Below are positions 1-24,206 of a stretch of DNA of 24,879 bases, in pieces. The notes under the pieces were generated by a model. It was given only the letters and a program-made list of their open reading frames with translations, had not been told where the DNA came from and made no database searches. This DNA comes from a virus: the IMG/VR virus record IMGVR_UViG_3300031857_001289, positions 1 to 24,879 of that record; one strand, given 5' to 3'. The number at the start of each line of letters is the position of its first letter. The first letter of the stretch is position 1. Both the position numbers and the translations under genes were made by a program.

Positions 1-289
1 ACTTTTGCTCAATTTTTGTCTTATCGTTTTTTCCGTAAAGGAATTCCCGCGTCCGTCCATCCTTATAGAACATTAACATCGGAATCGCCTTAATACGATT
101 CTTCTCTTTCAGTTCTGGTTGTTCATCTACATTTACCTTATAGAATGGAACAGTGGATTCATTTGCCACTTCTTCCACCATAGGTAACATTTCGATGCAG
201 GTTGGGCACCAAGGAGCCCAGAAATCTACCACGAACGGCTCCTTGGATGCCAACTTTTCTTCAAATTCTTGTAACGTGAGTTCCTGCAT
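1..289 (-). CDS. Thioredoxin (3' end beyond window)
   Basis: Small thiol-disulfide oxidoreductase; 96 residues are visible and the C-terminus runs off the window edge. The active site WCPTC (W27, C28, C31) follows the FWAP strand, and the cis-proline IPM motif is at about residue 70, as in thioredoxins. The CPTC sequence replaces the usual CGPC. The ATG overlaps the TAA of the ribonucleotide reductase gene by one base (TAATG), with GAGG just upstream inside that gene, so the two are translationally coupled. By known biology, class II reductases are re-reduced by thioredoxin through their C-terminal cysteine pair; the inference is that this is the dedicated reductant for the upstream enzyme. 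A glutaredoxin role is less likely because of the WCxxC and IPM context. Confidence 0.9.
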   Translation of the reverse strand, partial: MQELTLQEFEEKLASKEPFVVDFWAPWCPTCIEMLPMVEEVANESTVPFYKVNVDEQPELKEKNRIKAIPMLMFYKDGRTREFLYGKNDKTKIEQK

Positions 290-2139
290 TATTGCACCTC
301 ACATCCACCACCACCACAAGCAACTTCACCTGCGAGGTCGGTATTATCTTCGACTTCAACCACCTTGGTCAAATCAATCTTATGTAAGTGACCGACCATT
401 TCCTTGTATTGTTCTTCGGTGATATCTTCGAATGGAGCTTGCATATAACTGTGGTCACTATACGGCAGAACACTTAATGCGGTGAAGTTCTCACGATTGT
501 CCCACATCCATTCTCCAACACCAACCCATTCGTCTGGCTTGATGGTGACGGTGACGGATACGTTATTCTTGTTCTCACCCTTACGATGACCAGCCTTTAC
601 CCATTCCTTCCATACCTTACTGGTACGTCCAAGAAGGTCAAGTGCAGATTCTTGTCTGGTGATTGCACCCTTTGGTGCCTTTTGTGGAACAGAGATAACT
701 GCTTGTTGCTTCGGCTTGAAAAATTCATCTTCCACGATTTCTGGATGATTGTCTGCAAGATATTGATAGATACCTTCGTTCTTACCTACACGGATACGAC
801 GAATGTAGAAATCATTATGCCAAGCGTGAATGCCAGAGGAAGTTCCTAATACTAGAGATGAGGTTCCTTCGGGCTTGACAGTGGTGGTTCTCGCAGCCTT
901 GTTTGTCCCAATCATTTCCGCCACACGTGCATTCTCTTCCTTCACCACGTTGGCTGCTTCTTTCATATCTAAATTCAGGACGGTGCCCGAAGCGATACCC
1001 GTCATCGACACTCCGATGAGTGCTTCCTTTTCCGTTGTTCTCTTCCATATATCTCTCAAATAGTGAAAATTAGTATAGCTTGCTTGTAATGTTCCAATGA
1101 ATGCTGCTGCCTTCGCACGTGCGTTGAAATCATCTTGGTCCTTGATGTCACCGGCATTAATCGTGGTGAGGTTACAGAACTGGAATGGACGGAGTGAGAT
1201 TTCTGCACAAGGATTCAATCCCCAATTTGCATCATTTGTGAAGAAGAATCCAGGTTCACCAGAACCACTCATTTCAATCTTCTTCCAAAGTTCTAAGAAT
1301 ACTTCCTTTTCAATCTTGTGACGAACGATAACTGCAGAGTTATTGGAACGACCACGCTGTGGATTGGTTTCCCACCAGTTGCCGAACTTACAGGTCAACA
1401 TATCATCGTCATCCAAATCAAACAATGAAATCATTGCGGAACGACGAATGCCACCAGAAAGAACTGCATCAGCGATGAAGCACAGAATATCGTGCACTTC
1501 GAGTGTGGTAAGTTGTTGACCATTTTGCTTACGGTCGAAAATCTTTTGGATGTTGTGAAGTGCATCCTTGAGTGGTTCTGGACCAGGTGCCTTACCACCA
1601 GAGGTGAGCAATAATGCACCCTTTGGACGAACATCTGAGAAATCATAAACTGGTAATGCCTTCCCCTTCATATATGCTTCTACGAGCATCTTGACCGCAT
1701 CTGCCCAACCTTCAATACTGTCACCGACGAGATAACGGCGTGACTTGACTGGCTTGTTGATTGGTGGAAGTTGTTCAATATGATTCTTCTGTACGGAATA
1801 ACCCACACCCGTTCCAGAAAGAAGAAGGAACATCACTTCACTAAATGCGTCTGTGTGATTGATTGGAAGGAAACAGCAATTGTACAAACGTGCATTATTG
1901 ATTTGAATTGGCTTCCCTGCGAATTGGAGTGACCGCATGGATGGAAGTATCTTCTTATCATACACAAATTCGTATGCTGCTTCAATTTCTTTTTCTAACT
2001 TTGGGAACTTCTCTAAATGCATTGCTTTATTTCTATCTACGAGTTCCTTCCACGTTTCACGGCGTTGCTTCTTTGGAAGATACTTCGCATATTTCATAAA
2101 CGTTGTAATTTCTGACAATATCTTTGACTCTAGTTGCAT
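289..2139 (-). CDS. nrdJ: Adenosylcobalamin-dependent (class II) ribonucleotide reductase
   Basis: Makes deoxyribonucleotides from ribonucleotides for phage DNA synthesis. Visible class II features: the NPCAE catalytic loop (N309, C311, E313), a redox cysteine pair candidate formed by C88/C89 in LYNCCF and C322 in FCNLT, a VKPEGTSS segment near 422 followed by IRRIRV, and a C-terminal shuttle pair C608-x4-C613 in a glycine-rich tail. No separate small radical subunit gene lies next to it, as expected for a B12 enzyme. At 616 residues it is shorter than Lactobacillus RTPR (about 740). The start is supported by GGAG about 8 bases upstream. It follows the DnaB-type helicase gene after a terminator-like hairpin and runs into a thioredoxin gene with a one-base overlap. 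It depends on host or environmental cobalamin. Whether it uses di- or triphosphates cannot be read here. Confidence 0.92.
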   Translation of the reverse strand: MQLESKILSEITTFMKYAKYLPKKQRRETWKELVDRNKAMHLEKFPKLEKEIEAAYEFVYDKKILPSMRSLQFAGKPIQINNARLYNCCFLPINHTDAFSEVMFLLLSGTGVGYSVQKNHIEQLPPINKPVKSRRYLVGDSIEGWADAVKMLVEAYMKGKALPVYDFSDVRPKGALLLTSGGKAPGPEPLKDALHNIQKIFDRKQNGQQLTTLEVHDILCFIADAVLSGGIRRSAMISLFDLDDDDMLTCKFGNWWETNPQRGRSNNSAVIVRHKIEKEVFLELWKKIEMSGSGEPGFFFTNDANWGLNPCAEISLRPFQFCNLTTINAGDIKDQDDFNARAKAAAFIGTLQASYTNFHYLRDIWKRTTEKEALIGVSMTGIASGTVLNLDMKEAANVVKEENARVAEMIGTNKAARTTTVKPEGTSSLVLGTSSGIHAWHNDFYIRRIRVGKNEGIYQYLADNHPEIVEDEFFKPKQQAVISVPQKAPKGAITRQESALDLLGRTSKVWKEWVKAGHRKGENKNNVSVTVTIKPDEWVGVGEWMWDNRENFTALSVLPYSDHSYMQAPFEDITEEQYKEMVGHLHKIDLTKVVEVEDNTDLAGEVACGGGGCEVQ

Positions 2140-2198
2140 ACTTCTTACTCCAAAATCGTTAGGGGTTTGGGGTTAAATAAATACTACTGTGTTACGTG

Positions 2199-2223
2199 AA
2201 AAAATCGGTGATTACCCAACGAT
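2199..2223 (-). terminator. Intrinsic terminator after the DnaB-type helicase gene
   Basis: Read on the minus strand, a stem ATCG-T-TGG / TCA-C-CGAT with one mismatch and one G-U pair closes on a GTAA (GNRA-type) tetraloop. Six T residues follow at once (A-run 2199-2204 on the plus strand). It starts a few bases after the helicase stop codon and ends about 60 bases before the nrdJ start. This would limit read-through from the helicase operon into nrdJ-thioredoxin. The stem is short, so termination may be partial. Confidence 0.6.
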
Positions 2224-2228
2224 ATTTT

Positions 2229-3611
2229 TTAATCCAAATCCATCTCTAATAGTTTCTTTGCGAGGTTTTGTTTCGTAACCGTTTCACCATTTTCCATCTG
2301 CTTCTTCAACATAATCCCCTTTGCGGAGGATTCGTCGTAAATCTCTATCTTACCTACACTTGCGTCAATAATCATCGGGAACGTTTGACCATCTCCACCA
2401 AATCGGTTCTTGATGATATGAGCGCGACCCGTCTTATGAACCTTGTCCTCTAGTTTCCGAGAGATTGAGAGTACCAAGTCGGCTGTCATAATCTTGGAAT
2501 ACGATTCTGCAATCTTGTCCGCCTGAATCACTTCGTCTTGTAACGCACTTCTCTGAGTCTGTGAAGCCGTCCAAATCGGAACCTGCAATTCACCAGCCAA
2601 TCCACGAAGTTCTTCATAAACTGCACCCAACTCTTGATATCGTGCATCGGTTCTGGCGTTCGCACTCATCAAATCTGCATAATCAACGATGATGAGGTCT
2701 GGCTTGAATCCCAACGATGCCATCTGTTGAACGTGAGCCTGAATCGTATGAGATGTAATAGTACGAGCGGGATAATACTTAATGATAATTTCACCCTTAA
2801 TCGTTTCCACCAAATCCTTAATCAATTCAGGATTCTCTGGAATCTTTCCAGGCTCAATACCAGTATAAATCGTATCGTACCGAAGTCCCACATAATTTTC
2901 ATTCAATTCCAAGGTATAATGAACAACCTTTTTACCTTGCCTCAATGCATTCGCACCAATTGTTGCGAGTGCCCAACTCTTACCGACACCAGACGGAGCG
3001 ATAACGACTCCAAGTTCACCACCAGCCAATCCACCACCGATAAGGGAATCAAGAGCATCCCATCCAGTCGGAATCGTATCACGGGCGTCCTTCAATAATC
3101 GTTTCTCGAAATCCTTTTTCCAATCGTGACCAACAGTCTTGGGTTGACCACTCCGAAGAGCATTATCAACAAGAACTTTGATTTCACCATATTGACCAAT
3201 CTGCAGAAGGTCCACCGACTTAATGATGGCAGACTTTAAGGTTTGATTCTTAGCGAAATCAAGGAAACTATCTTGAACATAATCCAAATCGTTATCGTTC
3301 ATCTTTTGGAAGATACTACGAAGCGATTCCACGATACCAGTACGTAACGTATCGTCCTTGACATCCTTGTTCATCTCCACCTTGAATACTTCCAACGTAG
3401 GTAATGTCTTATACTCGTCAAAATATTCTAACGTAGTCGCAACAATCCACTGATTCGCATCCAACTCAAAGAAGTTTGGATTGATAACGTCATAGGATTG
3501 AGCAAGGAAATCAGGAGAGTTCAACATAGCCGCCACAGCTTTCGCTTGGAAACTAGGTCCGAATTTTGCCAACGTATCTACATTCTTGTCGTAATTCTTA
3601 TGGTCTACCAT
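2229..3611 (-). CDS. dnaB: Replicative DNA helicase, DnaB / T4 gp41 type
   Basis: Hexameric 5'-3' replicative helicase. Residues 1-170 form a divergent helical N-terminal region. The RecA-like motor has Walker A APSGVGKS (205-212), a catalytic-glutamate strand TLEL (E235), Walker B LIIVDYADL (D310), the ASQTQR sensor motif (349-354) and the KNRFGGDG arginine-finger/loop region (401-408). At 460 residues the length is normal. The ATG at 3611 lies inside the end of the exonuclease gene (14-base overlap), with a sigma70-type promoter about 65 bases upstream. A terminator-like hairpin follows. No separate primase gene is seen in the window and no zinc-finger primase domain is seen in this protein, so priming must come from elsewhere in the genome or from the host. 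Confidence 0.93.
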   Translation of the reverse strand: MVDHKNYDKNVDTLAKFGPSFQAKAVAAMLNSPDFLAQSYDVINPNFFELDANQWIVATTLEYFDEYKTLPTLEVFKVEMNKDVKDDTLRTGIVESLRSIFQKMNDNDLDYVQDSFLDFAKNQTLKSAIIKSVDLLQIGQYGEIKVLVDNALRSGQPKTVGHDWKKDFEKRLLKDARDTIPTGWDALDSLIGGGLAGGELGVVIAPSGVGKSWALATIGANALRQGKKVVHYTLELNENYVGLRYDTIYTGIEPGKIPENPELIKDLVETIKGEIIIKYYPARTITSHTIQAHVQQMASLGFKPDLIIVDYADLMSANARTDARYQELGAVYEELRGLAGELQVPIWTASQTQRSALQDEVIQADKIAESYSKIMTADLVLSISRKLEDKVHKTGRAHIIKNRFGGDGQTFPMIIDASVGKIEIYDESSAKGIMLKKQMENGETVTKQNLAKKLLEMDLD

Positions 3612-4638
3612 GATATCTCGCTAAAGGCGTAAAAGTAAATGTTATCCATTCATCATAATTCTGAATACTACTAATAATATTAGTACGAAACATCAGTCTT
3701 GTCAAGTCCGACTTCCGAATTGGAGGGCATCCTTCTTCGTATTTATGTAATATTTTCATCTTTGCATCAATATTAATATCCACATCGTGCAAATTCATTA
3801 ATTGCAAATTTCTATTTACTATACTGGTATTATCCAGTATATTTTCTACCAGCTTTGGCTTCTTTTTAATATCAGCATATTTCTGTTCAATTAAATCCAA
3901 ATTGACCTCAATATTTGGGTCAGCCAATTCTGGAATATACTTTAATACAGTTTTCTCACCAGCACCCTTGATTCCATCAATATTGTCACTCTTGTCACCA
4001 AGTAATGAACGATAGAATACAAAGTTGGATGGGTGAACACCATATGTTTCCATTACAATATCTATATCAAATGTTTTCTTCTTGACTGGATTGTATAGCT
4101 TAACGCTATCACTTACCATCTGTAAGAAATCTTTATCCGTAGAATAAATGATACTGGTACCACCATTCTTGGTGACCAACTCTGAGAAGTATGCGATAGT
4201 ATCGTCTGCTTCGATATTGTCCAACGCAAGAATAGAAACTGGTAAACATTCCACCATTTCTACAAGTGACACCAACTGCCACTTCATATTCTCCCGTTCT
4301 TGTTCATCCGTAGTCATATCATAGGAACGATTCAGACGAGTCGGTGGTTTCCGATTTGCCTTATATTCTTTATAAATCTTCCGTCTACGTTGTGACCCAC
4401 CCTTTCCATCAAATACGAGTACGACTCTGGTAGGTTTGAAACTACGAATAGCAAACCCCAAAGATTTCATAAATCCAGCCATTCCCCCAATATGATTACC
4501 ATCTTCATCTAATGTGGGAATAGCGGCATAACTCCGCATAAATGTGTTGAGTGCGTCAACAATAAGGACACGGGAATTATACCCAATGTCCTTATTGTCA
4601 AACTGCATACTATCAAACACCTTCAATAAATCAGTCAT
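3598..4638 (-). CDS. 5'-3' exonuclease / flap endonuclease (T4 RNase H-like)
   Basis: FEN-family nuclease that removes RNA primers and 5' flaps during lagging-strand synthesis. The metal-binding acidic residues are in order: D28 (LIVDALN), D77 (LVFDGKG), E143/D145/D146 (IEADD), D168 and D170 (STDKD), D215 and D218 (GDKSDN). The helix-3-turn-helix DNA-binding segment GIKGAGEKT spans 222-230. The basic arch segment RRRKIYKEYKANR is at 84-96. At 346 residues it is close to the phage T4/T5 enzymes. It overlaps the RecA-type gene by 8 bases upstream and the DnaB gene by 14 bases downstream, so the three are one translational unit. Since the polymerase in this window has no 5' nuclease domain, this gene probably supplies that activity. 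Confidence 0.9.
   Translation of the reverse strand: MTDLLKVFDSMQFDNKDIGYNSRVLIVDALNTFMRSYAAIPTLDEDGNHIGGMAGFMKSLGFAIRSFKPTRVVLVFDGKGGSQRRRKIYKEYKANRKPPTRLNRSYDMTTDEQERENMKWQLVSLVEMVECLPVSILALDNIEADDTIAYFSELVTKNGGTSIIYSTDKDFLQMVSDSVKLYNPVKKKTFDIDIVMETYGVHPSNFVFYRSLLGDKSDNIDGIKGAGEKTVLKYIPELADPNIEVNLDLIEQKYADIKKKPKLVENILDNTSIVNRNLQLMNLHDVDINIDAKMKILHKYEEGCPPIRKSDLTRLMFRTNIISSIQNYDEWITFTFTPLARYHGRP
3677..3705 (-). promoter_or_regulatory. Sigma70-type promoter for the DnaB gene
   Basis: The minus strand reads TTGACA (3705-3700), a 17-base spacer, then TAATAT (3682-3677). It sits inside the 3' end of the exonuclease gene and would start transcription about 60 bases before the DnaB ATG. The -35 is perfect; the -10 matches 4 of 6. 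It shares the TTGACAA core and 17-base spacing with three other promoters in the window, which raises confidence despite the coding location. Confidence 0.55.
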
Positions 4639-5815
4639 TTAGTAGTTGCTTTTTGGATGGTGATACTTCGTCCTCATCCTCTGCAGCTTCCTTGTTAACC
4701 GCAGATGGGTCGAAGTCCTTCTCATACTTCATAATAAGTGCTTCACAAATCTTGTCATACAACGTACTCTTACGTTCTTGGTCGGCTTCGAGGAAGGCTG
4801 GAAATTCCTTTGATTGGAACTTCTCGTCCTCATAGGAATACCATGCACCAGATTGCTTGACGATGCCGTTCTCCTTCAACACATCCAACCAACTGCTGTA
4901 GTCATCAATACCACGATTGAAGTAAATGTTGAATTCAGCTTCACGATACGGCGGACCCAAACGATTCTTGGTGATAACCGCCTTCGTGGTGATACCAATA
5001 ATATTTCCAGCCGAATCCTTCAACTTACCGACTTGTGACAGACGGATACGAGTTGAAGCGTGGAATCCGATTGCCTTACCACCAGACGTAGTGTATGGGT
5101 CAGAGAACGCAGGAGCGTTCATCTTCAAACGGAGTTGGTTCGTAAATACAAGTGCAATCTTCTCACGACCAAGAAGGTTCGTAATCTTTCTCATTGCCTT
5201 ACTGATAATGATGGACTTCGCAGTTGCGTAACCATCCTTATTGAAGTCTGCTGCCATTTCTGTCTTAGTAGAAGCGGCGGCAACGGAGTCAACCACAATC
5301 GTGACCAACTTATCCTTCTTCCCAGAGGCACGAACCTTCTCAATTATGTTGACAATAGAATCGAAAATATCTTCAACGGTATCGTGTTGGACATATACGA
5401 GCTTCTTCATATCCACACCAACTGCGGAGAAGAACTCATCGTTCACTGCATTTTCGGTATCAATCAGAACCGCAACACCACCACGCTTCTGTGTGGTTGC
5501 GATAAGTGACGCACCGACGAGTGACTTACCAGATGCTTCCAATCCAGTCAACTCAGTAATACGACCAGCGGCGATTCCACCATACGGACGATTACTGATT
5601 GCGATATCCAACATTGTATTTCCCGTCGAAATAAAATCTGTCAAATCAGTCGGGGTTTCCTCTTGACCATCCAAGAAATAAGCGACTTGCCCATCCTTGT
5701 ATAACTTGTTCAAGCTATCTGCGATAACTTGTGCCAGTTCATCGCGGTCTGCCGATGGGACTGGCTTCTTTTTTGCTTTTACATCTTCTGCGATAGCAGC
5801 TTTCTTTGGTGGCAT
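4631..5815 (-). CDS. recA: RecA/UvsX-type recombinase
   Basis: ATP-dependent strand-exchange protein for recombination-dependent replication and repair. Walker A GLEASGKS is at 91-98, DTENA at 119-123, Walker B VTIVVDS at 171-177, the FTNQLR motif at 224-229 and SGGKAIGFHASTRI, the L2-side core, at 244-257. There is a lysine-rich N-terminus and an acidic tail (EAAEDEDE), as in bacterial RecA. It is 394 residues from the ATG at 5815. An in-frame TTG 21 bases further up (5836) lies inside a terminator stem-loop flank and is a poor start. AAGG lies about 9 bases before the chosen ATG. It is separated from the SSB gene by a strong hairpin and overlaps the exonuclease gene by 8 bases. The core reads closer to bacterial RecA than to T4 UvsX, but a phage role equal to UvsX is expected. 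Confidence 0.92.
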   Translation of the reverse strand: MPPKKAAIAEDVKAKKKPVPSADRDELAQVIADSLNKLYKDGQVAYFLDGQEETPTDLTDFISTGNTMLDIAISNRPYGGIAAGRITELTGLEASGKSLVGASLIATTQKRGGVAVLIDTENAVNDEFFSAVGVDMKKLVYVQHDTVEDIFDSIVNIIEKVRASGKKDKLVTIVVDSVAAASTKTEMAADFNKDGYATAKSIIISKAMRKITNLLGREKIALVFTNQLRLKMNAPAFSDPYTTSGGKAIGFHASTRIRLSQVGKLKDSAGNIIGITTKAVITKNRLGPPYREAEFNIYFNRGIDDYSSWLDVLKENGIVKQSGAWYSYEDEKFQSKEFPAFLEADQERKSTLYDKICEALIMKYEKDFDPSAVNKEAAEDEDEVSPSKKQLLND

Positions 5816-5830
5816 AATATGTACCTTATG

Positions 5831-5884
5831 TAACAAAACACGCAGGCGCTAGGTAGTTCTGAGGCTACCTAGCACACAGCGTGT
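5831..5884 (-). terminator. Hairpin terminator / attenuator between SSB and RecA genes
   Basis: A perfect 9-base-pair inner stem (5848-5856 with 5865-5873, GCTAGGTAG/CTACCTAGC) with an 8-base loop is extended by an outer 6-base-pair stem (5838-5843 with 5879-5884, ACACGC/GCGTGT) across small internal bulges. On the minus strand it is followed by TTTTGTT. It starts 11 bases after the SSB stop and ends just before the RecA start. No promoter is evident between it and recA, so it probably lets some transcription through and lowers recombinase output relative to SSB. Confidence 0.7.
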
Positions 5885-5894
5885 CTTTGGTTAA

Positions 5895-6683
5895 TTAATC
5901 GTTGAACAACTCGTCAAACGCATCAACAGCGTTCTTGACGTTCTCCTTCGGAGCTGCGGCGGTAGCGGTCACCGCCTTAGGTTCCTCAGCCTCACGGGCT
6001 GGAGTGATGACTGAATTATCGGGGTCGAGATACTTTTCAAGTACGACCTTCAGCTCATTGTAGGTTGGCTCAGAATAAAGCTCCTTGATATCCGGCTGTT
6101 CCGTCATCCACAACTTCATTTGAGCTGGGTCAGACGAAAGCGGAGTCTGAGCTGGCTTGACCTTCACCGAAGTCTTGGCGAAGTTGGTATCGCTCTTTTC
6201 CTTCGGAATATACTCAACTACGATGTCACGACCAGTCTTGGCATCGGTGATATCACCGTAGTCAGGGTCAGAGATGTACGAAAGAAGCTCTTGATAGACC
6301 GTCTTACCGAACGAATAGAAACGAACGCCCTTGTCCTCTTCACCACGAACGATGACAGGGATATAGGTACGGAGCTTCGGCATGAACGGACGAGCCTCGG
6401 CATAACGCTCCTTCGGGTCACGGGTCTGGTCTGACTTCAGTGCGTCAGCAAACTCCGCAATCGGGTCACGGTTGCCATATGAAAGTGGTGAGAGATGGGT
6501 CTTATTGCCCAAATAGTGGAAGTAGAGTTCGATAAAGGGATTCTCGGGGTTGTCCTTCCACGGAACGATACGGATGACTGTCTTTCCTTCCTTCGGCTTC
6601 CAGATAGCGGTATCGCGGTCCCCACCGCCAACTCGCTTGAAACTGTTAAGCTTACTCTTTAGTGCATTGATGTCTAGCGCCAT
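5895..6683 (-). CDS. Single-stranded DNA-binding protein, T4 gp32-like
   Basis: Coats single-stranded DNA at the replication fork. Like T4 gp32 it has a basic N-terminus (LKSKLNSFKR), an aromatic-rich core with IRIVPW, FIELYFHY and VRFYSFGKTVY segments, and a strongly acidic, flexible C-terminus ending FDELFND, the part that in T4 contacts other replication proteins. It is 262 residues, a little shorter than gp32 (301). Unlike T4 gp32, which binds zinc through three cysteines and a histidine, this protein has no cysteine at all. The start has GAGG 8 bases upstream and its own consensus promoter with a leader of about 55 bases. The order SSB-recombinase-exonuclease-helicase supports the call. 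Confidence is from motifs and context only. Confidence 0.82.
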   Translation of the reverse strand: MALDINALKSKLNSFKRVGGGDRDTAIWKPKEGKTVIRIVPWKDNPENPFIELYFHYLGNKTHLSPLSYGNRDPIAEFADALKSDQTRDPKERYAEARPFMPKLRTYIPVIVRGEEDKGVRFYSFGKTVYQELLSYISDPDYGDITDAKTGRDIVVEYIPKEKSDTNFAKTSVKVKPAQTPLSSDPAQMKLWMTEQPDIKELYSEPTYNELKVVLEKYLDPDNSVITPAREAEEPKAVTATAAAPKENVKNAVDAFDELFND

Positions 6684-6744
6684 ACTGTTTACCTCGTTTA
6701 AAATGTTTAAGGGTGTTTATTGTGATATACCCCAAGTAGGAAGA

Positions 6745-6773
6745 AGTATACCACGCTTTGTTTAGTTTGTCAA
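6745..6773 (-). promoter_or_regulatory. Strong sigma70-type promoter for the SSB gene
   Basis: The minus strand reads TTGACA (6773-6768), exactly 17 bases, then TATACT (6750-6745). It lies entirely between the stop of the upstream unknown gene (6785) and the SSB start (6683), leaving a leader of about 55 bases with a GAGG ribosome-binding site. It is the clearest promoter in the window and fits the high protein demand for an SSB. Confidence 0.8.
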
Positions 6774-6784
6774 GTCCCTACTTA

Positions 6785-7186
6785 CTAAAAGTTTAATATT
6801 TCTTTTATTTTGGTTTTAACTATTTTTAATTGACCATGTGCGGTAACTAAAATAGAATTCTTTAATTCATCCCAATCAATCTTATAGGACTTATCTATTT
6901 TACCACCATTTTTACTTGCTATTAATGCGTTTAATGCATTAATCGTATATATTGTATTTGTTTGCTTCTTTCTGTGTACGGATATAGTGGAAGCTGGTGG
7001 TGCGTAATGTTCTTTTAATGAACCCACTACGATATTATATGTTAATATAAGTTGATTTGGGTCATCAATATTTTCAAGAACATACACGTTGTTGAACGCT
7101 AGTGTATAAGAATTCTTAATAAGATTTACATTTTCATCCAACTTATCAGCTGCTATAAACGTGCATAACAATTGAGTTTCGTTCAT
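6785..7186 (-). CDS. Hypothetical protein, 133 aa
   Basis: I do not recognise this gene. The product is a mixed, mostly soluble 133-residue protein with no signal peptide, membrane segment or obvious catalytic motif. The C-terminal half is lysine-rich and probably alpha/beta (IDWDELK, LKIVKTKIKEILNF). It sits between the polymerase and SSB genes, so a replication-linked role is plausible but not shown. The ATG at 7186 has a weak GAG Shine-Dalgarno at 7193-7195, which falls in the 3' arm of a 9-base-pair hairpin, so translation may be regulated. Its stop lies just before the SSB promoter. Confidence 0.75.
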   Translation of the reverse strand: MNETQLLCTFIAADKLDENVNLIKNSYTLAFNNVYVLENIDDPNQLILTYNIVVGSLKEHYAPPASTISVHRKKQTNTIYTINALNALIASKNGGKIDKSYKIDWDELKNSILVTAHGQLKIVKTKIKEILNF

Positions 7187-7192
7187 ATAGTA

Positions 7193-7223
7193 CTCATAAG
7201 ACTGTTAACCGACTTCTTATAAG
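7193..7223 (-). promoter_or_regulatory. RNA hairpin overlapping the ribosome-binding site of the 133-aa gene
   Basis: On the minus strand CUUAUAAGA (7223-7215) can pair with UCUUAUGAG (7201-7193) over nine positions, one of them G-U, leaving a 13-base loop that contains the palindrome GUUAAC. The 3' arm carries the GAG that would serve as Shine-Dalgarno 6 bases before the ATG at 7186. This geometry resembles a translational operator. The regulator, if any, is unknown. The stem is A/U-rich and may be weak. Confidence 0.4.
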
Positions 7224-7244
7224 TATCAAAATGTATTCAATAAA

Positions 7245-8519
7245 TTATATTTTGTATAGAGAAATTTGGTTATAATTGTGACCACGATATTGACGGACAG
7301 GATATCCACCTTTACTGAGTTTTTCTGCGACATTCCCCATAATATCCAATTCATCGTTGTGGACATCCAGTAGAATAGCGTCATAAGTATACAGAATGAC
7401 CTTGGATTTGAACATATCCAAATACTGGCAAACTCCGTTTACTCTGGCAATCGCTTCTTCAGTCTCCGTCAACTGCATCATATAGTTAAACACCTTATTA
7501 CTGGTGGGGTCAAATACAGTCACTTTGCGACCCGTTCCTGACAATACAAATCCATTCTGACGGTATTTCTCCCACAAATCAGACGAGTACTCCTTGAGCT
7601 TTTGGAAGAACTCTACACCACCTGTATCGTCACTATATCCATACATCAATCCGAACGTGCGGGACTTGGATTCTTCATATTGTTCTTCGGTAATATTATC
7701 TGTCCCATAATACTGTTTGGCAAGGAATTCGTGAACGGAACTTTCTGGGAGTTTATATCCGATAAGGTCAGCCGCAAGACGAAGATGGAATGCCTCATAG
7801 TCAAACTGGACAAGAGTACCATTCTCCCCAAACCGACTGACGAACTTCTCACGGGTACCATCGTTCTTATTGAGAGCGGCAAAGTTGATTCCACCAAACG
7901 CATTACTCGGACGACCTGTAGAAGTGTAGATGTTATAATCAGAATACACGAACTGATTGTCAGTAGTCCAGAGTCCTGCTTGCTCAATCTTGGTCAACGT
8001 AGGAATGGTAATCTGATTAATGAATTCAAACGCAGATGTCTGTTCCGTGGACTGGCATCGGTCGTACATATGCTTACAGTGTTGTAAGAACGCCTCTGCG
8101 GTTTCTATCCACGAAGTCAACGGGATACTGTAATGGAGATTCTTGAACTTGAACTGGCTCTTAATCTGGTGCATCGCCATCGTGTAGTATTCCCGATACA
8201 ACGGAATCACATCCCCATTCAAATGTATCAACGATGCCAAGTCAACTACATTCTTTGCATTAGTCAGTTGTTGTAATTCTTTTTTATGAAGGGTGACCAA
8301 CTTATATGCATCACTCAGGTCCATCTGAAAGTGTGGGGCATCGGGATGATTGACCGACACAGTATACGAGGTTCCATCATCAAAGAGGAAATGGAGTAAA
8401 GCAACACGATTCTGTGAAGAGTGTAGAAATGCGTCAACCGCCACGGGATAGACATAAGTAGTCTCACCCCGAAGGCGGTTGGTCAAATATTCTAGTTCTG
8501 CTTGTGTCGTAATAACCAT
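7245..8519 (-). CDS. polA: Family A DNA polymerase, short form with altered motifs
   Basis: Probable phage replicative polymerase. The 424-residue protein contains the family A palm/fingers: a TGRPSNAFGGINFAAL segment (201-216), motif A FDYEAFHLRL (D240), an O-helix motif KSRTFGLMYG (K285, F289, Y293) and motif C LYTYDAILLD (D380). The two essential metal-binding aspartates are kept. Compared with E. coli Pol I, the motif A glutamate (E710) is His245, the HDE of motif C is Tyr-Asp-Ala, and the R754 position appears to be Tyr281 (alignment by eye). Residues 1-170 show no clear 3'-5' exonuclease motifs and no 5' nuclease. It is much shorter than Pol I (928) or T7 polymerase (704). A consensus promoter lies just upstream and GAGG precedes the ATG by 5 bases. 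Confidence 0.85.
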   Translation of the reverse strand: MVITTQAELEYLTNRLRGETTYVYPVAVDAFLHSSQNRVALLHFLFDDGTSYTVSVNHPDAPHFQMDLSDAYKLVTLHKKELQQLTNAKNVVDLASLIHLNGDVIPLYREYYTMAMHQIKSQFKFKNLHYSIPLTSWIETAEAFLQHCKHMYDRCQSTEQTSAFEFINQITIPTLTKIEQAGLWTTDNQFVYSDYNIYTSTGRPSNAFGGINFAALNKNDGTREKFVSRFGENGTLVQFDYEAFHLRLAADLIGYKLPESSVHEFLAKQYYGTDNITEEQYEESKSRTFGLMYGYSDDTGGVEFFQKLKEYSSDLWEKYRQNGFVLSGTGRKVTVFDPTSNKVFNYMMQLTETEEAIARVNGVCQYLDMFKSKVILYTYDAILLDVHNDELDIMGNVAEKLSKGGYPVRQYRGHNYNQISLYKI

Positions 8520-8547
8520 TGGTTCCTCAATAATATATTATAATTTA

Positions 8548-8576
8548 AATATACTATCAATCCACTCTATTGTCAA
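8548..8576 (-). promoter_or_regulatory. Sigma70-type promoter for the polymerase gene
   Basis: The minus strand reads TTGACA (8576-8571), 17 bases, then TATATT (8553-8548). It overlaps the last codons of the upstream 115-aa gene and gives a leader of about 20-25 bases before the polA ATG at 8519. It marks the boundary between the tail block and the replication block. Confidence 0.75.
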
Positions 8577-8904
8577 CCCCTTGAAATCCTTCTAATGGAT
8601 TAGACAATAATCTAGTTAACCCGGGCATGTTTTTGTCATAAAATACTGCGGTCACTGTATTCTTATGTTTTGCTCCATAGATAATTGTACCATCCGATGA
8701 TAGTGTATCATTTGCAAACCCCGTGATAACCCAAGGAAATTCTACACGTTCATATAATACGTTTGTCTTGAACGCTTCATACTGCTTTTTATCTACTTCA
8801 GTTATCAACTTAGTAGAAATATGCCTTACAAAATACCGGGTAACAAATCCGCTACGTACATCAACTTGAGTTATTTTTGGGCGAGTACTATATGGTGTTG
8901 TCAT
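8557..8904 (-). CDS. Hypothetical protein, 115 aa, probably virion-associated
   Basis: Unrecognised 115-residue protein. It has a basic N-terminal half (TRPKITQVDVRSGFVTRYF) and a hydrophobic, beta-rich middle (FPWVITGFAND, TVTAVFYD), with no membrane helix or signal peptide. It starts 3 bases before the hub gene's stop side and is the last gene of the tail block, ahead of the polA promoter that overlaps its end. Co-transcription with the hub gene suggests a baseplate or assembly role; this is inference from position only. The ATG at 8904 follows the hub reading frame closely, but note that it lies downstream of the hub gene in transcription. Confidence 0.75.
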   Translation of the reverse strand: MTTPYSTRPKITQVDVRSGFVTRYFVRHISTKLITEVDKKQYEAFKTNVLYERVEFPWVITGFANDTLSSDGTIIYGAKHKNTVTAVFYDKNMPGLTRLLSNPLEGFQGVDNRVD

Positions 8905-8906
8905 AT

Positions 8907-11900
8907 TTATCGTCCGAATGGATTACGGAACGCGTCAAAACTTGAGGGGCGATTATTTACGGTTGTATTTCTCATCGGAGCATTCGCTGGGTTTGCCGAA
9001 CGTGAAGTAACCGATGGACGGGTGGTAGGAGTTGATGCTACTCTACCAGAGGTACCAGACGCACCCGATGTACCTGCGGTACCCGTTGATGGTGATGTCG
9101 GTGCTCTGGATTCTGCTGCTTTTGGTCTATATCTAAAGCGTCCTTGTATCTTGGTAATCCATCCATTTTGTGAACTAAATTCGTGTGTGATTTTTGTTAC
9201 GACATAAAATCCACGGTCAATAATAGATGGTATACGGTCAACTAAAAATGATTGGAATAGGTTAATACCACCAATACCAGGTAGTGTAACATCGACAATA
9301 GTTTTTGTAAGATTAGAACTGTTAAATGCGTGTGCTTTTGAAGGAGTTCTACCTTCCTCTGCTGCGGTTGAATCTAAATTCAATCTTTTCATCATACGTG
9401 CAGGATTAATTTCCATTAACTGTAGTGCGGTACCCAAATCCGCATACTCTCGTAATGTTCCAACTAGATTTGGATTGAATTGAGTCGAAGTAACAATATC
9501 ACGTTCTAATTGTATTGATGCAACGTTTCTTTGTGCACTAACAGTTCTTTCCGATGGACCAACGTTTACAAAAGTTTCACCTGTAAATTGTAGATTACCT
9601 TGTACACCCTGTCTAGCATCCTCTTCCCTTGCCAATCTTTCTTGTTCTACTGCGTCTGCCAATCGTCTGTCTAAACGTTGGAGTTCGTCACTCTGACAAT
9701 TACCGTTACCATCATCATTACCACATGGGGTATATAATCCCTGTATTAATGAAAGTTGTTGAAGTTCCTTCACATCAATCGTGTTTAATAATCCTTTTTG
9801 CGCCGGACCACCAATGTTTGCAATTGCCTGTACTGCCACTACTTGTGGCATATTGAATTCTACATTTAAATCTATTAAATCGCTGCCAAGTTCACCATCA
9901 TTAAGAATTTTGGTACCACGATTGAACATATAAATATACTTTGGATTATCTTCAGACCCTTCATAATATCTGTTAATATTTACACCACTTATACTATTTA
10001 AAATGTTGGTTGTATCGGCATCTTCCGTATCTACAGAAACTAACTTTGGTGTTTTTGATAATCCCATATCAATTACGTGCATACCTGGATTTTTAACATC
10101 CGTAGAATATAATTGAAGATTCCAATAACCTTCTGTTGCTGAATTCATCATACTCAATAATGAATTGATGCCAGAAGAAACTGTATCAGTGGAGGTAAAT
10201 GCTTGTTTGATTGCACTAGTGTTAATCCATATACCTCTGGTTAAATACGAAGCGCCCGATTCAACCGATGGCCCTATTACATTTTCAAATGGATTTAATG
10301 CTTGTTCAAGTCTACGTTCTAGTGTAGAATCTCTAAATGCTTGACTTATTGCCGAACTTCCCGACGCAGCAGCATTTGTTAAACTTGCAAATATAACATC
10401 ATCATCTGAGTTGATATATTGGGATTGTGCAATAGGATTACGGATAAGCATAACGCCTGGATTAATTGACCGTAAACTTGGATGATATCCGACTTGATTT
10501 GCAAACAATCCAGATTCCGCTAACGATCCAGTTACTTCTCTTGTGGGACGTAACAATGCTAATTGTGCCAATGCTTCTCTATTATCACCCAACATGCTTG
10601 CGATTCCAAGAACTCTATCATTGAGAATTTTTTCTACGAAAAATCTCCACGACACAAAATATTCATTCTCTCTAGTACCAGCATTAGTACTTGCAGCACC
10701 AGCAGTTCTTTGTTCACTTTGATCATTTTTTATCGGAACAATCTGGTCGGACCAAACACTATCAGGTCCGGTTTGTATATTTCTATAATACGATATTAAC
10801 TTGGTAAAATGATTCGCCTTCCAGTTGTATACATCATTAAAATATTCTTGAATATCTATTACTTTACATGCTGATACTGGCGATGGGCAGGTAGATTGTA
10901 CTGCGGTGTGTTTAGTAGGTACTTCAAATTGTTGAACAGAATGTATTGTTAAATCTATTTCAAATATATTATTCTTGTTATATTTTAGATTGAATTTTAC
11001 TACATACCCGATAAAGATTTCGTAGTTTCCATAATTGTTGTAAACATATTGTTTAATAAAATCCTTTTGATGATCTTCGTCTTTGATAAGGGAAGTAAAA
11101 TATTCTTTAATGTTTAATTTAATTTCACTATTATTCTTTTTATATCCTAACTCTCCTTTAACTGCTTTTTTCCAATCAAAAGGTGTAATTTTTATTTCAT
11201 TTGGGCTAGATGAGGTACGACCCAATTCAAGAACCACTCTTGTAGCAGGACGTAAGAAATATCTAAGTAATGCATCTACTTGTCCAACGGAGTAGGCGAC
11301 TATCTTTAAATCTGCTTTCATTAAGCCACCGCGAACGCCCATTGGGCCCGCAGTACTACGTTCTACATTTACTTGAGTGATGCCGGGAATTGGAATATTC
11401 TTTGCATCTTTTGATGCATTTGCAACAAGGATTGGTATTGTTCTGCTACCGTCTTGACTAATACCATATGCCACCGTACTTCTATTATTATCTCGCGTCA
11501 AGTAAATATCTTCAAACGACACATCGTTTAATCCGTGTATACCAAGCGAAGGGCAATAAGCTAATGTTTCACTATCAGGTAAATTATTCAATGCAGTACC
11601 ATCTAATAATTGTTTTGGTACTTGCGACAACGATGTAAGCTTTACAAACGGCATATAAGTATTTGCCGTTTCCGATGATATTCTACGTCTGGTTAATTCA
11701 TATTGAATTTTTGGATGAAATGATTCTAACGCTTCAATATATGGACTGATAGCAGCTCGGGACGGTGGTACTTGTTGTACTGGTCTAGTAGGTCTAGTAG
11801 AATTAGTTGAACTGTTATAAGATACATTTGCCACAGCCGTTAGGTAAGGCAACGGGTCTATAGCCGTATCTGTAATTTGAAGAATAGTTCCTTCTTCGCC

Positions 11901-12353
11901 TATTTCCTTATCCCCAACATCTGGATCTCTGTTAACTTTCTTAAGTATAAAATGTAAATGTGGACCGAATGTTCGTCCTGTCATTCCTACTCGACCAACT
12001 ACTTGTTGAGCGATTACCTTAGATCCTACAGTAATATTAAATTCTTGTGGGGAACCTGCTTGCATATGACAAACAGATGTTGTAAATCGTGGTTTACGAC
12101 CATAATTAGTCACACCTTCTACATCTACTTCATCGTGTAATAACACAATCCCAACACCGCATGTTGCATTATTTACTAATCTGAATACGGTACCATCCGC
12201 CACCGCATGTATTGGAGTACCGACCGGAGCAGCAATGTCCACTGCATTATGTGGTTCGATAGCATCATCTATTGTTCGTTTACCAAATCCACTGGTAATA
12301 TTTAAGACACCACTAGGTGGATATACTGGTGCAGATTTAAAGCGTATTGCCAT
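8907..12353 (-). CDS. Baseplate hub / tail lysin with N-terminal M23 endopeptidase
   Basis: Large 1148-residue structural protein. Residues 15-140 are a complete M23 (LytM/lysostaphin-type) zinc peptidase: H35-x3-D39 in HNAVD, H96 in VCHM and H132-x-H134 in PHLHF. This should cut peptidoglycan cross-links during injection. The remainder (about 280-1080) is beta-rich with segments such as DLKIVAYSVGQVDALL and, near the end, RGFYVVTKITHEF, which read like hub/late-control proteins. The last 60 residues are a low-complexity Thr/Ser/Gly/Ala/Pro tail. It follows the LysM baseplate gene by one base and precedes a small unknown. In T4 the equivalent needle complex carries a lysozyme domain (gp5); here an endopeptidase takes that place. 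The hub assignment is inference; the M23 call is firm. Confidence 0.85.
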   Translation of the reverse strand: MAIRFKSAPVYPPSGVLNITSGFGKRTIDDAIEPHNAVDIAAPVGTPIHAVADGTVFRLVNNATCGVGIVLLHDEVDVEGVTNYGRKPRFTTSVCHMQAGSPQEFNITVGSKVIAQQVVGRVGMTGRTFGPHLHFILKKVNRDPDVGDKEIGEEGTILQITDTAIDPLPYLTAVANVSYNSSTNSTRPTRPVQQVPPSRAAISPYIEALESFHPKIQYELTRRRISSETANTYMPFVKLTSLSQVPKQLLDGTALNNLPDSETLAYCPSLGIHGLNDVSFEDIYLTRDNNRSTVAYGISQDGSRTIPILVANASKDAKNIPIPGITQVNVERSTAGPMGVRGGLMKADLKIVAYSVGQVDALLRYFLRPATRVVLELGRTSSSPNEIKITPFDWKKAVKGELGYKKNNSEIKLNIKEYFTSLIKDEDHQKDFIKQYVYNNYGNYEIFIGYVVKFNLKYNKNNIFEIDLTIHSVQQFEVPTKHTAVQSTCPSPVSACKVIDIQEYFNDVYNWKANHFTKLISYYRNIQTGPDSVWSDQIVPIKNDQSEQRTAGAASTNAGTRENEYFVSWRFFVEKILNDRVLGIASMLGDNREALAQLALLRPTREVTGSLAESGLFANQVGYHPSLRSINPGVMLIRNPIAQSQYINSDDDVIFASLTNAAASGSSAISQAFRDSTLERRLEQALNPFENVIGPSVESGASYLTRGIWINTSAIKQAFTSTDTVSSGINSLLSMMNSATEGYWNLQLYSTDVKNPGMHVIDMGLSKTPKLVSVDTEDADTTNILNSISGVNINRYYEGSEDNPKYIYMFNRGTKILNDGELGSDLIDLNVEFNMPQVVAVQAIANIGGPAQKGLLNTIDVKELQQLSLIQGLYTPCGNDDGNGNCQSDELQRLDRRLADAVEQERLAREEDARQGVQGNLQFTGETFVNVGPSERTVSAQRNVASIQLERDIVTSTQFNPNLVGTLREYADLGTALQLMEINPARMMKRLNLDSTAAEEGRTPSKAHAFNSSNLTKTIVDVTLPGIGGINLFQSFLVDRIPSIIDRGFYVVTKITHEFSSQNGWITKIQGRFRYRPKAAESRAPTSPSTGTAGTSGASGTSGRVASTPTTRPSVTSRSANPANAPMRNTTVNNRPSSFDAFRNPFGR

Positions 12354-12354
12354 A

Positions 12355-12612
12355 TTAAATATTCGGAATAAAAAGTCTGGTTCCGATAGGTACTGCCATA
12401 CTACCGTTTGCTAAATTGTTCGCTTTGGCAAGTACCCACCAGTTTTCTGTAGTGTTGTAAAACTTATATGATAACGTGTCCAATCGGTCACCATCTTGCA
12501 CAACATAATAGAATGGAATGTCCTCAGACGGAATTGACGTAGGCAACACCGTAGTATAATATGGAATCTTTTTTGTCGTATCCACTTGTGGTGGTGTAGT
12601 ATATCGTTCCAT
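12355..12612 (-). CDS. LysM-domain baseplate protein (T4 gp53 / P2 gpX-like)
   Basis: An 85-residue protein that is mostly one LysM fold: residues 35-84 run YVVQDGDRLDTLSYKFY, then NWWVLAKANN, then PIGTRLFIP, the classic YxVxxGDxLxxIA...W..I...N.....I..G..L.IP pattern. In contractile tails, small LysM proteins (T4 gp53, P2 gpX) join baseplate wedge or hub parts rather than binding cell wall. AAGGA lies about 8 bases before the ATG. It sits between the 550-aa tube/baseplate gene and the M23 hub gene, which supports a hub-proximal position. Confidence 0.85.
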   Translation of the reverse strand: MERYTTPPQVDTTKKIPYYTTVLPTSIPSEDIPFYYVVQDGDRLDTLSYKFYNTTENWWVLAKANNLANGSMAVPIGTRLFIPNI

Positions 12613-12623
12613 TTAAGTTATCC

Positions 12624-14276
12624 TTAAGGAGTTTGGTTAAATCTTCTAATTTCTTCTAACTGATTTCTTGCATTTCTACGTTCTCTGATAATCTGTTCAG
12701 CATCTTCTGTAATCTTATAGAATGGACTATCGTGGAACTTACTACGCTTTTCAAGGATACTGAGTTGCATATTTACATTGATTGCAAATGGTACTTCTCT
12801 GTCAATATCAAATGTAATTGATTCATCTAAGAAATCATAGTCTAAAGATTCAATATAACACGGTTGGTTATCATATAATCCACCGATAGTAAATTTAAAT
12901 AGTGGTGGAGTCATAAATCCATTCTGCACACCCTTTGGAAATGCCAAACCAGTAAGATAATTTACCTTAGTCCACATCCCGTCAAGTTCACCGTCAGAAA
13001 ATGCCACAATATTAAATGATAAACTTAATCCACGTTTTGCCCCACCATATGTTACGAATCGTTCGGTACGACCCACATATCGTTGTTCAGTAAATTCTGG
13101 TTTAATTGATTCCTTTATACTTGATATTAATGCTCTAAAGTGTACAGGATTACTGTTTGCATCTGTTGCATCACGGAATGTAAACTTTACAATATCTGAC
13201 TTTTCTTTTTGTGGTTTAGTAATATTTGCATAATTTAGTTTATCACCGACTAAGTTCCCTGCTGCATCAAAATTATTTTCGTTACTTTGAAACTCTGCTA
13301 TATTATACGGATCCTTTAATGTGGTATAACCAACTACAGGATCTTTTCTTGCTTGAACAATTCCAGTATCAAATTGTGTTTCGGTTGGATTTTCTGCTTC
13401 GCTAAAATATTTACTCTTGAATCGTGATGTTCTATTGTTCTTCGTAAAACTATCCTTAAATTGTTGTGCTTTTTGTTCAAACGTAAAGTCTGATGCTGGG
13501 ATAGGTACGTTTGGAACAGGAGGAACCGTATTTCTTAAATTTCTTGGTACAAGTCTATTTAGCGCAGATGTTGTGGATGCGACTAATCTGGTGGTCACTC
13601 TTGATGCAATTACATTTACAAGTGTGGCAGTTACATTTGTTCGTACAATTCCACGTTGACTTAATGGTTGGGCTGGAAATATACGAATTCCCTTTTCAAA
13701 TGCTTTGTATTCTGGACGAGAGGTAGTGTAAAATTGAGGTAATGGAATAATAGAATTGGCAGCATTTTTTAATTGAGTTACCAAATAGTTTTTTGCCAAA
13801 CTACCAATTGTAGGTAACAACCTACGTTGACCCGTAGTGAGTGCTTGTAATTCACCTATAGTGTTAAATCGACTCGCAACGGTATTAACGGTGGTCGTTT
13901 GTAATAATCCAGATGGTGAAGGTACTAATGTATTCGTTGGTATATTTCGTCTTATGTGTAAGAACGGAACAGCATTTAAAGCGGGAGATAGTGGATTGTA
14001 TAATTTAGTATTGAGGAATGTATTTCCAGTTTGTAGTAATGCTTGTTTAGTAGTAAATAATACACCTTCTGGTGACGTTAAAAACTTACTGACTCGACGA
14101 GTATCTCGTAATACCGATACGGTTGGGACTGACCGATTGTCATTTTTAATACGACTATTACTTCCAAACACTCCATCGGTATCTGGCTTGACCACAATTA
14201 ATTGGTCACTACTTGGCGAAAATCTCTTGTAGATGTCTTGGGATTTTTCTTCAAATAAATCTTTCAACGTTGCCAT
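12624..14276 (-). CDS. Tail tube / baseplate-tube junction protein (probable)
   Basis: A 550-residue structural protein. The N-terminal 270 residues are Asn/Thr/Arg-rich with no recognised domain. The C-terminal part (about 370-520) is a compact beta domain with FRALISSIKES, RTERFVTYGGAKRGLSLSF, LTGLAFPKG and FKFTIGGLYDNQPCYIESL segments, followed by VPFAINVNMQLSIL. This pattern resembles contractile-injection-system tube or tube-cap proteins that initiate the tail tube on the baseplate (T4 gp48/gp54 role). It lies between the tape measure gene (3 bases away) and the LysM gene, the expected place for such a protein. The exact position in the virion is inference. Confidence 0.65.
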   Translation of the reverse strand: MATLKDLFEEKSQDIYKRFSPSSDQLIVVKPDTDGVFGSNSRIKNDNRSVPTVSVLRDTRRVSKFLTSPEGVLFTTKQALLQTGNTFLNTKLYNPLSPALNAVPFLHIRRNIPTNTLVPSPSGLLQTTTVNTVASRFNTIGELQALTTGQRRLLPTIGSLAKNYLVTQLKNAANSIIPLPQFYTTSRPEYKAFEKGIRIFPAQPLSQRGIVRTNVTATLVNVIASRVTTRLVASTTSALNRLVPRNLRNTVPPVPNVPIPASDFTFEQKAQQFKDSFTKNNRTSRFKSKYFSEAENPTETQFDTGIVQARKDPVVGYTTLKDPYNIAEFQSNENNFDAAGNLVGDKLNYANITKPQKEKSDIVKFTFRDATDANSNPVHFRALISSIKESIKPEFTEQRYVGRTERFVTYGGAKRGLSLSFNIVAFSDGELDGMWTKVNYLTGLAFPKGVQNGFMTPPLFKFTIGGLYDNQPCYIESLDYDFLDESITFDIDREVPFAINVNMQLSILEKRSKFHDSPFYKITEDAEQIIRERRNARNQLEEIRRFNQTP

Positions 14277-14279
14277 ATG

Positions 14280-15977: not shown

Positions 15978-15980
15978 ACA

Positions 15981-16253
15981 TTATCTCTTTGAAGGTTTAC
16001 TTCGCGCTTGTGCCTGTTTAACTTGTTCTGCTTCTTTCTTTTTTACGTCTTCCAATTGTCTCAAATGGAAATTACGAAGATAGACCGGCATATTATAAAC
16101 TTGGTCAAAATTAAATGCTCCATTACTATAATACGCCATTGTAAACAACGTTTTGTGAATATCGACTTTATGCTCGGATGTCAGGCCAAAAAAAGTTTGC
16201 CCCAAAGGGCATCCTCGCTTTAATTGCCGTATCACAGCTTGGACATACAACAT
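15981..16253 (-). CDS. Small tail-assembly protein, start or recoding uncertain
   Basis: A 68-90 residue product with a core of DIHKTLFTMAYYSNGAF, YNMPVYLRNFHLRQL and a charged Lys/Glu/Gln tail, the look of the second part of tail-assembly chaperones or small baseplate assembly factors. It overlaps the gp26-like gene by 86 bases in another frame. The ATG at 16253 has no visible Shine-Dalgarno. Two alternatives exist: a TTG at 16205 preceded by GAGG with a 7-base spacer, or entry by +1/-2 frameshifting at the T7 run (16194-16188), giving a fusion of about 312 residues. The recognisable part begins only after the T7 run, so the N-terminus from 16253 is probably not real protein. The 3' end is certain, the 5' end is not. 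Confidence 0.65.
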   Translation of the reverse strand: MLYVQAVIRQLKRGCPLGQTFFGLTSEHKVDIHKTLFTMAYYSNGAFNFDQVYNMPVYLRNFHLRQLEDVKKKEAEQVKQAQARSKPSKR

Positions 16254-16920
16254 TTAATTCAAAATTCACATCAGGTGAAACCTTTCTATATGCTTCTCGT
16301 AATGCACGAACATCACGAATAATCATTGCTTCTGCAAATTCCCGTACAGTCTTGCGGTCACGGTTTCCATTAAATGAAGTGACAATGTACTTTAATCGTG
16401 TAGTTGCTTCATTATCGACACCAGTACCAATCTTCTTTGTTGCGTTCACTTCATTCATAATTTCTTTTTCATCTGCTCTGGTCAATAACTTAAAGGTAAC
16501 CTTGGTACCAGTTGGTAGGTCTATTTCATGTTCACCGTTGATTAATTCATCCGTAACATCAATCGTTGACAATCCAGATAAGTCAACTACGTGTTCGAAT
16601 TTCTTTCCACAGTTTCCACATCCTAATTCAATTGGATAATCCTTACCGTAAGCTAAGATACGAGCCGCAACCATTACTGCATTTAAATCCCCAATCAATA
16701 AATCATCGGGTTTTACACCAGGTGTGACAATTAAACTTTCCATCAACTTATCAATAACCGTCCCTTTTTGGATAAGGTTGGTTGAGGTCAAGATATCTTC
16801 TTCCTTTGCGGTCATATACTTGACATCAACCTTTCCACTCCGTAACGGACTTCCCTCTGGATAGAACTTCCCACCACTGGGCAAGTCTATCGTTTCTGTC
16901 GGGAAATTGTACTCTGCCAT
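16168..16920 (-). CDS. T4 gp26-like baseplate hub/assembly protein
   Basis: A 250-residue protein with two zinc-binding-type pairs, C101-x2-C104 (GCGNCGKKF) and C226-x2-C229 (VCPSCD), and an N-terminal VDVKYMTAKEEDIL segment, a pattern I associate with the T4 gp26 baseplate family. It ends FFWPDIRA. The start has a strong AAGGAG about 6 bases before the ATG. It overlaps the small ORF in a second frame and precedes the tape measure gene. An alternative is that it is the first part of a tail-assembly chaperone pair; position would fit both. Cysteine placement and the DLLIGDLNAVM segment favour the baseplate family. Confidence 0.7.
   Translation of the reverse strand: MAEYNFPTETIDLPSGGKFYPEGSPLRSGKVDVKYMTAKEEDILTSTNLIQKGTVIDKLMESLIVTPGVKPDDLLIGDLNAVMVAARILAYGKDYPIELGCGNCGKKFEHVVDLSGLSTIDVTDELINGEHEIDLPTGTKVTFKLLTRADEKEIMNEVNATKKIGTGVDNEATTRLKYIVTSFNGNRDRKTVREFAEAMIIRDVRALREAYRKVSPDVNFELNVVCPSCDTAIKARMPFGANFFWPDIRA
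16188..16194 (-). promoter_or_regulatory. Possible programmed frameshift site (T7 run)
   Basis: Seven consecutive T on the minus strand, in the context AAC-TTT-TTT-TGG of the gp26-like frame, lie 17 bases before that gene's TAA (16170-16168). A +1 (or -2) slip moves ribosomes into the frame of the small ORF, which then continues for 68 codons to 15983-15981. Position directly before the tape measure gene matches known frameshifted tail chaperones (lambda G/GT -1, Mu -2). No pseudoknot was worked out. Confidence 0.35.
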
Positions 16921-16962
16921 AAATAACTCCTTAAACTGGTTAGTTTTATACCTTTATAAATA

Positions 16963-22652: not shown

Positions 22653-22662
22653 ATATCACCAA

Positions 22663-24183: not shown

Positions 24184-24206
24184 GACTATTCCTAAAAAAT
24201 TGTTTA

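Follow-up and report, generated by a model that had tools for sequence, protein, structure and literature searches.

The 424-aa protein encoded at positions 7245–8519 of the window (the whole analysed stretch of 24,879 nucleotides, whose record is a 24.9 kb fragment) is a new member of the already published divPolA1 family of short family A DNA polymerases. It is probably an accessory polymerase of a T4-like phage, used for gap filling or recombination-linked synthesis, with a family B polymerase (PolB) replicating the genome. The features of the window that bear on this reading are as follows.

289..2139, minus strand: B12-type ribonucleotide reductase (domain searches); PolB lies a few genes further, outside the window
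2229..3611, minus strand: DnaB/gp41-like replicative helicase (PF03796, E = 1.3e-20; phrog_19, E = 1.7e-78)
3598..4638, minus strand: Pol I-type 5'-3' exonuclease, FEN / T4 RNase H-like (PF02739, E = 1e-31)
4631..5836, minus strand: RecA/UvsX-like recombinase (PF00154, E = 1.9e-51)
5895..6683, minus strand: gp32-like single-stranded DNA-binding protein (PF08804, E = 7.7e-13)
6785..7186, minus strand: conserved 133-aa protein, next gene after the polymerase and candidate partner (conservation, model)
7245..8519, minus strand: short family A DNA polymerase, divPolA1-type, 424 aa (Pfam, HHalign, model, tree)
7377..7385, minus strand: motif C, Y379-D380-A381 (family alignment)
7638..7679, minus strand: motif B / O helix, Y281...K285...F289...Y293-G294 (HHalign and family alignment)
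7779..7802, minus strand: motif A, D240-Y-E-A-F-H245-L-R247 (sequence alignments)
7911..7985, minus strand: thumb remnant, residues 179–203 (length comparison with Pol I)
8124..8519, minus strand: degenerate 3'-5' exonuclease-like domain, about residues 1–132 (model and sequence alignment)
8548..8576, minus strand: promoter-like TTGACA-17-TATATT just upstream of the polymerase start (11/12 consensus match only)

The polymerase gene starts with an ATG at 8519 and its stop codon ends at 7245 on the minus strand; the plus-strand translation of the same interval contains many stops. An earlier note on this DNA had described a 424-residue family A polymerase-like protein here, correctly in coordinates, length and all residues named. 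The Pfam DNA_pol_A family matches the protein with E = 6.6e-8, slightly short of the family's cut-off, and the Klenow fragment is its top PDB sequence match. Structure prediction and superposition on Pol I, as proposed in that note, yielded a confident AlphaFold model (pLDDT 95.2, pTM 0.92), of whose 424 residues 396 align with Bst Pol I (Z 30.5, 3.1 Å) and which also matches the Klenow fragment in Foldseek (E = 1.4e-18). As modelled, the protein has the Klenow-type fold of Pol I.

A family profile built from 82 relatives aligns with E. coli Pol I in HHalign (probability 96%, E = 2e-9), residues 3–418 being matched to Pol I residues 333–926, that is, to both the exonuclease and the polymerase domains. 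A gap in this alignment covers about residues 550–651 of Pol I. From the conserved Glu that precedes the thumb to Arg668, the family has 23–41 residues where E. coli Pol I has 127, so that hardly any thumb is left. The model aligns with Bst/Taq Pol I from residue 1 onward. In the sequence alignment of this N-terminal region, whose register around D355 is uncertain, the E357 equivalent is acidic in none of 231 relatives and the D424 equivalent is Lys in 202 of them. On these alignments the N-terminal exonuclease domain is a shrunken, catalytically dead shell. The statement that the protein shows no 3'-5' exonuclease motifs thus holds for the catalytic acids, which are lost, but not for the domain itself, a degenerate form of which is present.

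The palm catalytic residues D240, D380, K285, Y293 and R203 are kept in the window protein. The HHalign register places D240 on D705, H245 on E710, Y281 on R754, K285 on K758, F289 on F762, Y293 on Y766, and the YDA triplet on H881-D882-E883. All four sequence-based readings of the earlier note are borne out by this alignment: both metal aspartates are present, motif A is DYEAFHLR with His245 at the E710 position, Tyr281 occupies the R754 position, and motif C is YDA in place of HDE. Among 231 non-identical relatives, the equivalents of Asp705, Arg668 and Tyr766 are invariant. The position of Glu710 is His in all 231, a count that may be biased by the use, in part of the retrieval, of a search pattern ending in this His; the His is also found in 29 relatives retrieved without that pattern, and in the matches of a pattern-free tblastn search (immuto, Mel-JY01 and LR756508). 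Tyr at the 754 position and the Lys758 equivalent are each found in 230 of 231 relatives (the remaining residue at 758 is X), and the Phe762 equivalent is kept in 226. Both metal aspartates and the equivalents of Asn845 and Gln849 are invariant or nearly so. Motif C is Y-D-A in 131 relatives and Y-D-S in 98.

For comparison we used ten family A polymerases, including those of E. coli, T7, SPO1-like phage, mycobacteriophage, CRP-3 and LIS04 as well as the full-length PolA proteins of immuto and of one relative. E710, R754 and H881 are present in all ten, in contrast to His, Tyr and Tyr in the window protein. Motif C is HDS in five of them (CRP-3, MR003, LfeInf, SBSphiC, LIS04), and since Ser or Gln is frequent at position 883 in this set, a motif C without Glu is not distinctive. 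By sequence comparison, the replacements that set the family apart are only those at E710, R754 and H881. In Pol I, E710 excludes ribonucleotides and R754 contacts the triphosphate. The F762 equivalent is retained and the His at 710 is itself bulky; nucleotide selection may be relaxed by the two replacements or merely rebuilt. According to PMC4882331, E710 is conserved in all of family A and serves to position the incoming nucleotide.

Relatives were found at 51 loci in a protein scan of IMG/VR, and alignment queries returned at least 592 stretches encoding them. Named carriers are Flavobacterium phage immuto (gp001), Microcystis phage Mel-JY01 and the 484-kb uncultured phage LR756508. The window protein and immuto gp001 share 30.5% identity at 86% coverage (tblastn, E = 3e-41). 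The family, gp001 included, forms one clade within family A with support of 100/100, in agreement with the earlier suggestion of a distinct polymerase subclade, and has a long stem of 2.16 changes per site. An origin of the short polymerase as a recent duplicate of immuto's full-length PolA was rejected, the latter grouping with ordinary polymerases at a great distance from the family.

The virus also encodes a normal polymerase. Contig G026 (28,110 bp) encodes a polymerase protein 100% identical to that of the window and matches window positions 1–18519 at 99.96–99.98% nucleotide identity, window position 1 corresponding to contig position 8609. It runs past the left end of the window through thioredoxin and dUTPase genes to a family B polymerase of 839 aa (contig 4518–7037) with polymerase and exonuclease domains. 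The PolB gene starts about 1.6 kb outside the window and spans 1.6–4.1 kb beyond its left end; a relative with about 76% identity (G010) has the same layout. As remarked earlier, the window contains no polymerase other than the short enzyme, but the virus has a further one, and the proposal that the short enzyme is the replicative one is contradicted by this PolB, the kind of gene that had been named as speaking against it. A larger second polymerase was found in all 15 related records of at least 100 kb searched: PolB in G001–G004, G016–G019, Mel-JY01 and LR756508, and a full-length PolA with an exonuclease domain in immuto and G005–G008. Shorter records without a match to a second polymerase (e.g. 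G009, G013, G022, G023) are fragments and carry no weight. In Mel-JY01, the clamp-loader genes adjoin PolB and not the short polymerase.

Several of these records have peculiarities of their own. G001 (IMGVR_UViG_3300047510_001668, 177,878 bp) carries the short polymerase at one of its ends and, in a separate part, a T4-like set of clamp-loader, PolB and helicase genes. It may be a chimeric contig, because the short polymerase ends the contig and, from a look at its ORFs, the T4-like clamp-loader/helicase set is a second one; the second-polymerase result is unchanged when G001 is left out. In the 484-kb phage, PolB extends over two large frames of 1022 and 625 aa (LR756508.1:260623-266900, W03), which suggests an intein, an intron or a split gene. 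Beside PolB of the window virus, about 4–7 kb past the window's left end (L355:1297-4452, minus strand), is a gene for a TonB/Oar-like outer-membrane beta-barrel protein of 1051 aa that includes a carboxypeptidase-regulatory domain; such a protein is odd for a phage, and a similar ORF is present in G010. It could be a receptor decoy or an exclusion factor.

The gene order polymerase, 133-aa protein, gp32, RecA, FEN and helicase recurs over 285 loci, to the limit of each contig. Of 257 loci, 138 have the 133-aa gene immediately after the polymerase, and nearly all the others have it within 3 kb. Its product has the invariant residues T49-Y50-N51, H71, K73, N77, Y80-T81, N83, N86, G95, D98 and W105 and the invariant segments TYN, HRKK and NTxYTINALN, and it is conserved near the polymerase in hundreds of phages. 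Domain searches found no known domain in it. Its model is confident (pLDDT 95.3); comparison with PDB structures gave no clear match and no OB-fold protein among the matches listed, and the N-terminal half resembles ferredoxin-like domains (Z 6.6 over 63 residues). Promoter-like sites matching at least 11 of 12 consensus positions precede the polymerase in 18 of 203 relatives, as against one in shuffles, and the 133-aa gene in none of 184, both counts being of sigma-70-like consensus matches only. One transcript for the two genes would fit this distribution, with a predicted site before the former and none before the latter.

The remainder of the window carries genes of other kinds. The reductase is B12-type in the window (289–2139, minus strand) and annotated as NrdA/NrdF subunits at the same place in immuto (L054:6895-9483); the reductase class seems to have been swapped inside one conserved gene order. 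Other minus-strand genes encode a 1148-aa tail hub-like protein with an N-terminal M23 peptidase domain (8907–12353), an SNF2-type helicase with a short N-terminal match, below cut-off, to the ExoX-like C-terminal domain (16963–18873), and sulfotransferase-like, subtilase (Peptidase_S8) and QueC-like proteins, which are non-replication genes (21266–24773).

The divPolA1 family was published in 2024 (Virol J 2024;21:200, PMC11348598) with immuto gp001 and 13 others, from phages with genomes of 155–190 kb. As described in the text of that paper, its members have a truncated thumb, a dead exonuclease and a regular second polymerase. The window protein is like them in fold, size, kept catalytic palm, truncated thumb and inactivated exonuclease, with no structural difference from the published text, and its gene likewise occurs alongside that of a regular polymerase, with the same kinds of replication genes downstream. 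The text of the paper does not mention the invariant His and Tyr changes or the 133-aa neighbour, although the alignments in its Fig. 5 may show the residues; relative to that text, the His/Tyr invariance, the large size of the family (at least 592 IMG/VR stretches here versus 14 phages) and the 133-aa neighbour are extensions. The literature searched has no mention of divPolA1 beyond this paper and its preprint, and a search on phages Mel-JY01 and immuto gave nothing useful.

Compared with E. coli and Bst Pol I (Klenow fragment), the window protein shares the fold over 396 residues, the metal aspartates and the O-helix Lys/Phe/Tyr. It differs in E710 to His, R754 to Tyr, HDE to YDA, the nearly complete loss of the thumb and the dead exonuclease, and it has no fused 5'-3' exonuclease, a separate FEN gene being located nearby. 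The divPolA2 proteins of phages likewise are a second PolA accompanying a regular PolB and lack a normal thumb, but according to the text of PMC11348598 their N-terminal domain is unrelated and their gene neighbourhood varies. The TV-Pols (PMC2579912) are minimal family A polymerases of mobile elements and viruses in replication cassettes; they are recognised by association with a D5-like helicase, whereas the helicase neighbouring the window polymerase is DnaB/gp41-like. The CCPol-MP system of SCCmec (PMC7581432) and the related PolA-SSB pairs (PMC10061031) likewise combine a short PolA with a small nearby protein and a helicase gene. CCPol, however, retains E710 and lacks the exonuclease domain (PMC7581432), and its system differs from that of the window in an OB-fold partner and a linked Cch2-type helicase (PMC7581432, PMC10061031). 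A split polymerase as in Rhodothermus phage RM378 was rejected, since neither p024, which corresponds to the exonuclease portion of a family B polymerase, nor p012, which is a 5'-3' exonuclease, is related to the window protein. The proteins encoded immediately upstream of the short polymerase, of 323 aa in immuto and 219 aa in Mel-JY01, were considered as stand-alone exonucleases and rejected, Pfam finding no exonuclease domain in them.

Catalytic residues invariant among 231 relatives and a confident Pol I-like model argue for an active accessory polymerase. The enzyme would be template-directed, of low processivity and without proofreading, and would carry out short synthesis on gp32-coated DNA. 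For example, it might fill gaps after the neighbouring 5'-3' exonuclease has removed primers, making a Pol I in two pieces, or extend recombination intermediates, while PolB would carry the bulk of replication. In phage T4 FEN is also located near gp32, so its presence alone is no pointer to a split Pol I. The accessory role is favoured by the lost thumb and exonuclease, the PolB of the same virus, the second polymerase in 15 of 15 records, the Mel-JY01 clamp-loader genes adjoining PolB, the gene order kept over 285 loci and the published account of divPolA1, with which the protein agrees in every structural respect. Against a gap filler stands the closest studied precedent of a short-PolA cassette, CCPol-MP, which is a primase. 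Gene neighbourhoods are also better conserved around divPolA1 than around the regular polymerases, as would fit a larger replication role.

The inverse arrangement, with the short polymerase as main replicative enzyme and the family B enzyme as accessory, could explain why it heads a conserved helicase/SSB/RecA block and why relatives differ in the family, B or A, to which their regular polymerase belongs. We regard it as very unlikely, given an almost thumbless enzyme without proofreading, a full-length PolB with both domains in the same virus and a clamp loader that sits with PolB in Mel-JY01. A role in translesion synthesis or repair, called upon at a stalled PolB, would agree with the missing proofreading, the more open active site expected from thumb loss and the RecA and SSB genes alongside; but a position at the head of the core replication block, kept across hundreds of contigs, is more than expected of an optional repair enzyme, and this role is unlikely. 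Several replaced active-site positions and the high divergence would suit a catalytically dead, structural subunit of the replisome, which is hardly credible beside the (nearly) invariant metal aspartates and equivalents of Arg668, Lys758, Tyr766, Asn845 and Gln849.

The most interesting alternative to gap filling or recombination-linked synthesis is primer synthesis. In the manner of CCPol-MP, or of what has been proposed for TV-Pols, the short polymerase might make primers or tolerate RNA, perhaps with the help of the 133-aa protein; the space left by the thumb would then take the initiating nucleotide, and E710 to His would alter sugar selection. The CCPol-MP precedent is a primer-making pair of a short family A polymerase and a small partner, in which the shortening of the polymerase's thumb helix is believed to make room for the first nucleotide (PMC7581432, PMC10061031); the invariant His and the strongly conserved 133-aa neighbour point the same way. 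However, of 18 related records that were searched, 8 have a DnaG-like primase, among them Mel-JY01 and two close relatives of the window; CCPol retains the Glu; the 133-aa model matched no OB fold and nothing else clearly; and its gene directly follows the polymerase in just over half of the loci, though it is no more than 3 kb away in nearly all the rest. We consider this role rather improbable, and a replacement of the primase by the short polymerase was rejected because of the DnaG-like primase in relatives. In a more specific and quite speculative version, which we think improbable, divPolA1, its pocket rebuilt with His and Tyr and its thumb dropped, and the 133-aa protein would together be a novel two-component enzyme, working alongside a DnaG-type primase on gp32-coated DNA, where it would initiate primers or elongate them, possibly from ribonucleotides.

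Under the preferred reading of an accessory polymerase, replication of the phage does not hinge on a mini-polymerase that lacks proofreading, because a normal PolB is also encoded. The divPolA1 family extends far beyond the 14 phages listed in the text of its first description, and E710, described as universal in family A (PMC4882331), is uniformly replaced in it. The family thus offers biochemists a natural test of the function of E710 and R754, and the 133-aa neighbour is the obvious candidate partner of divPolA1.
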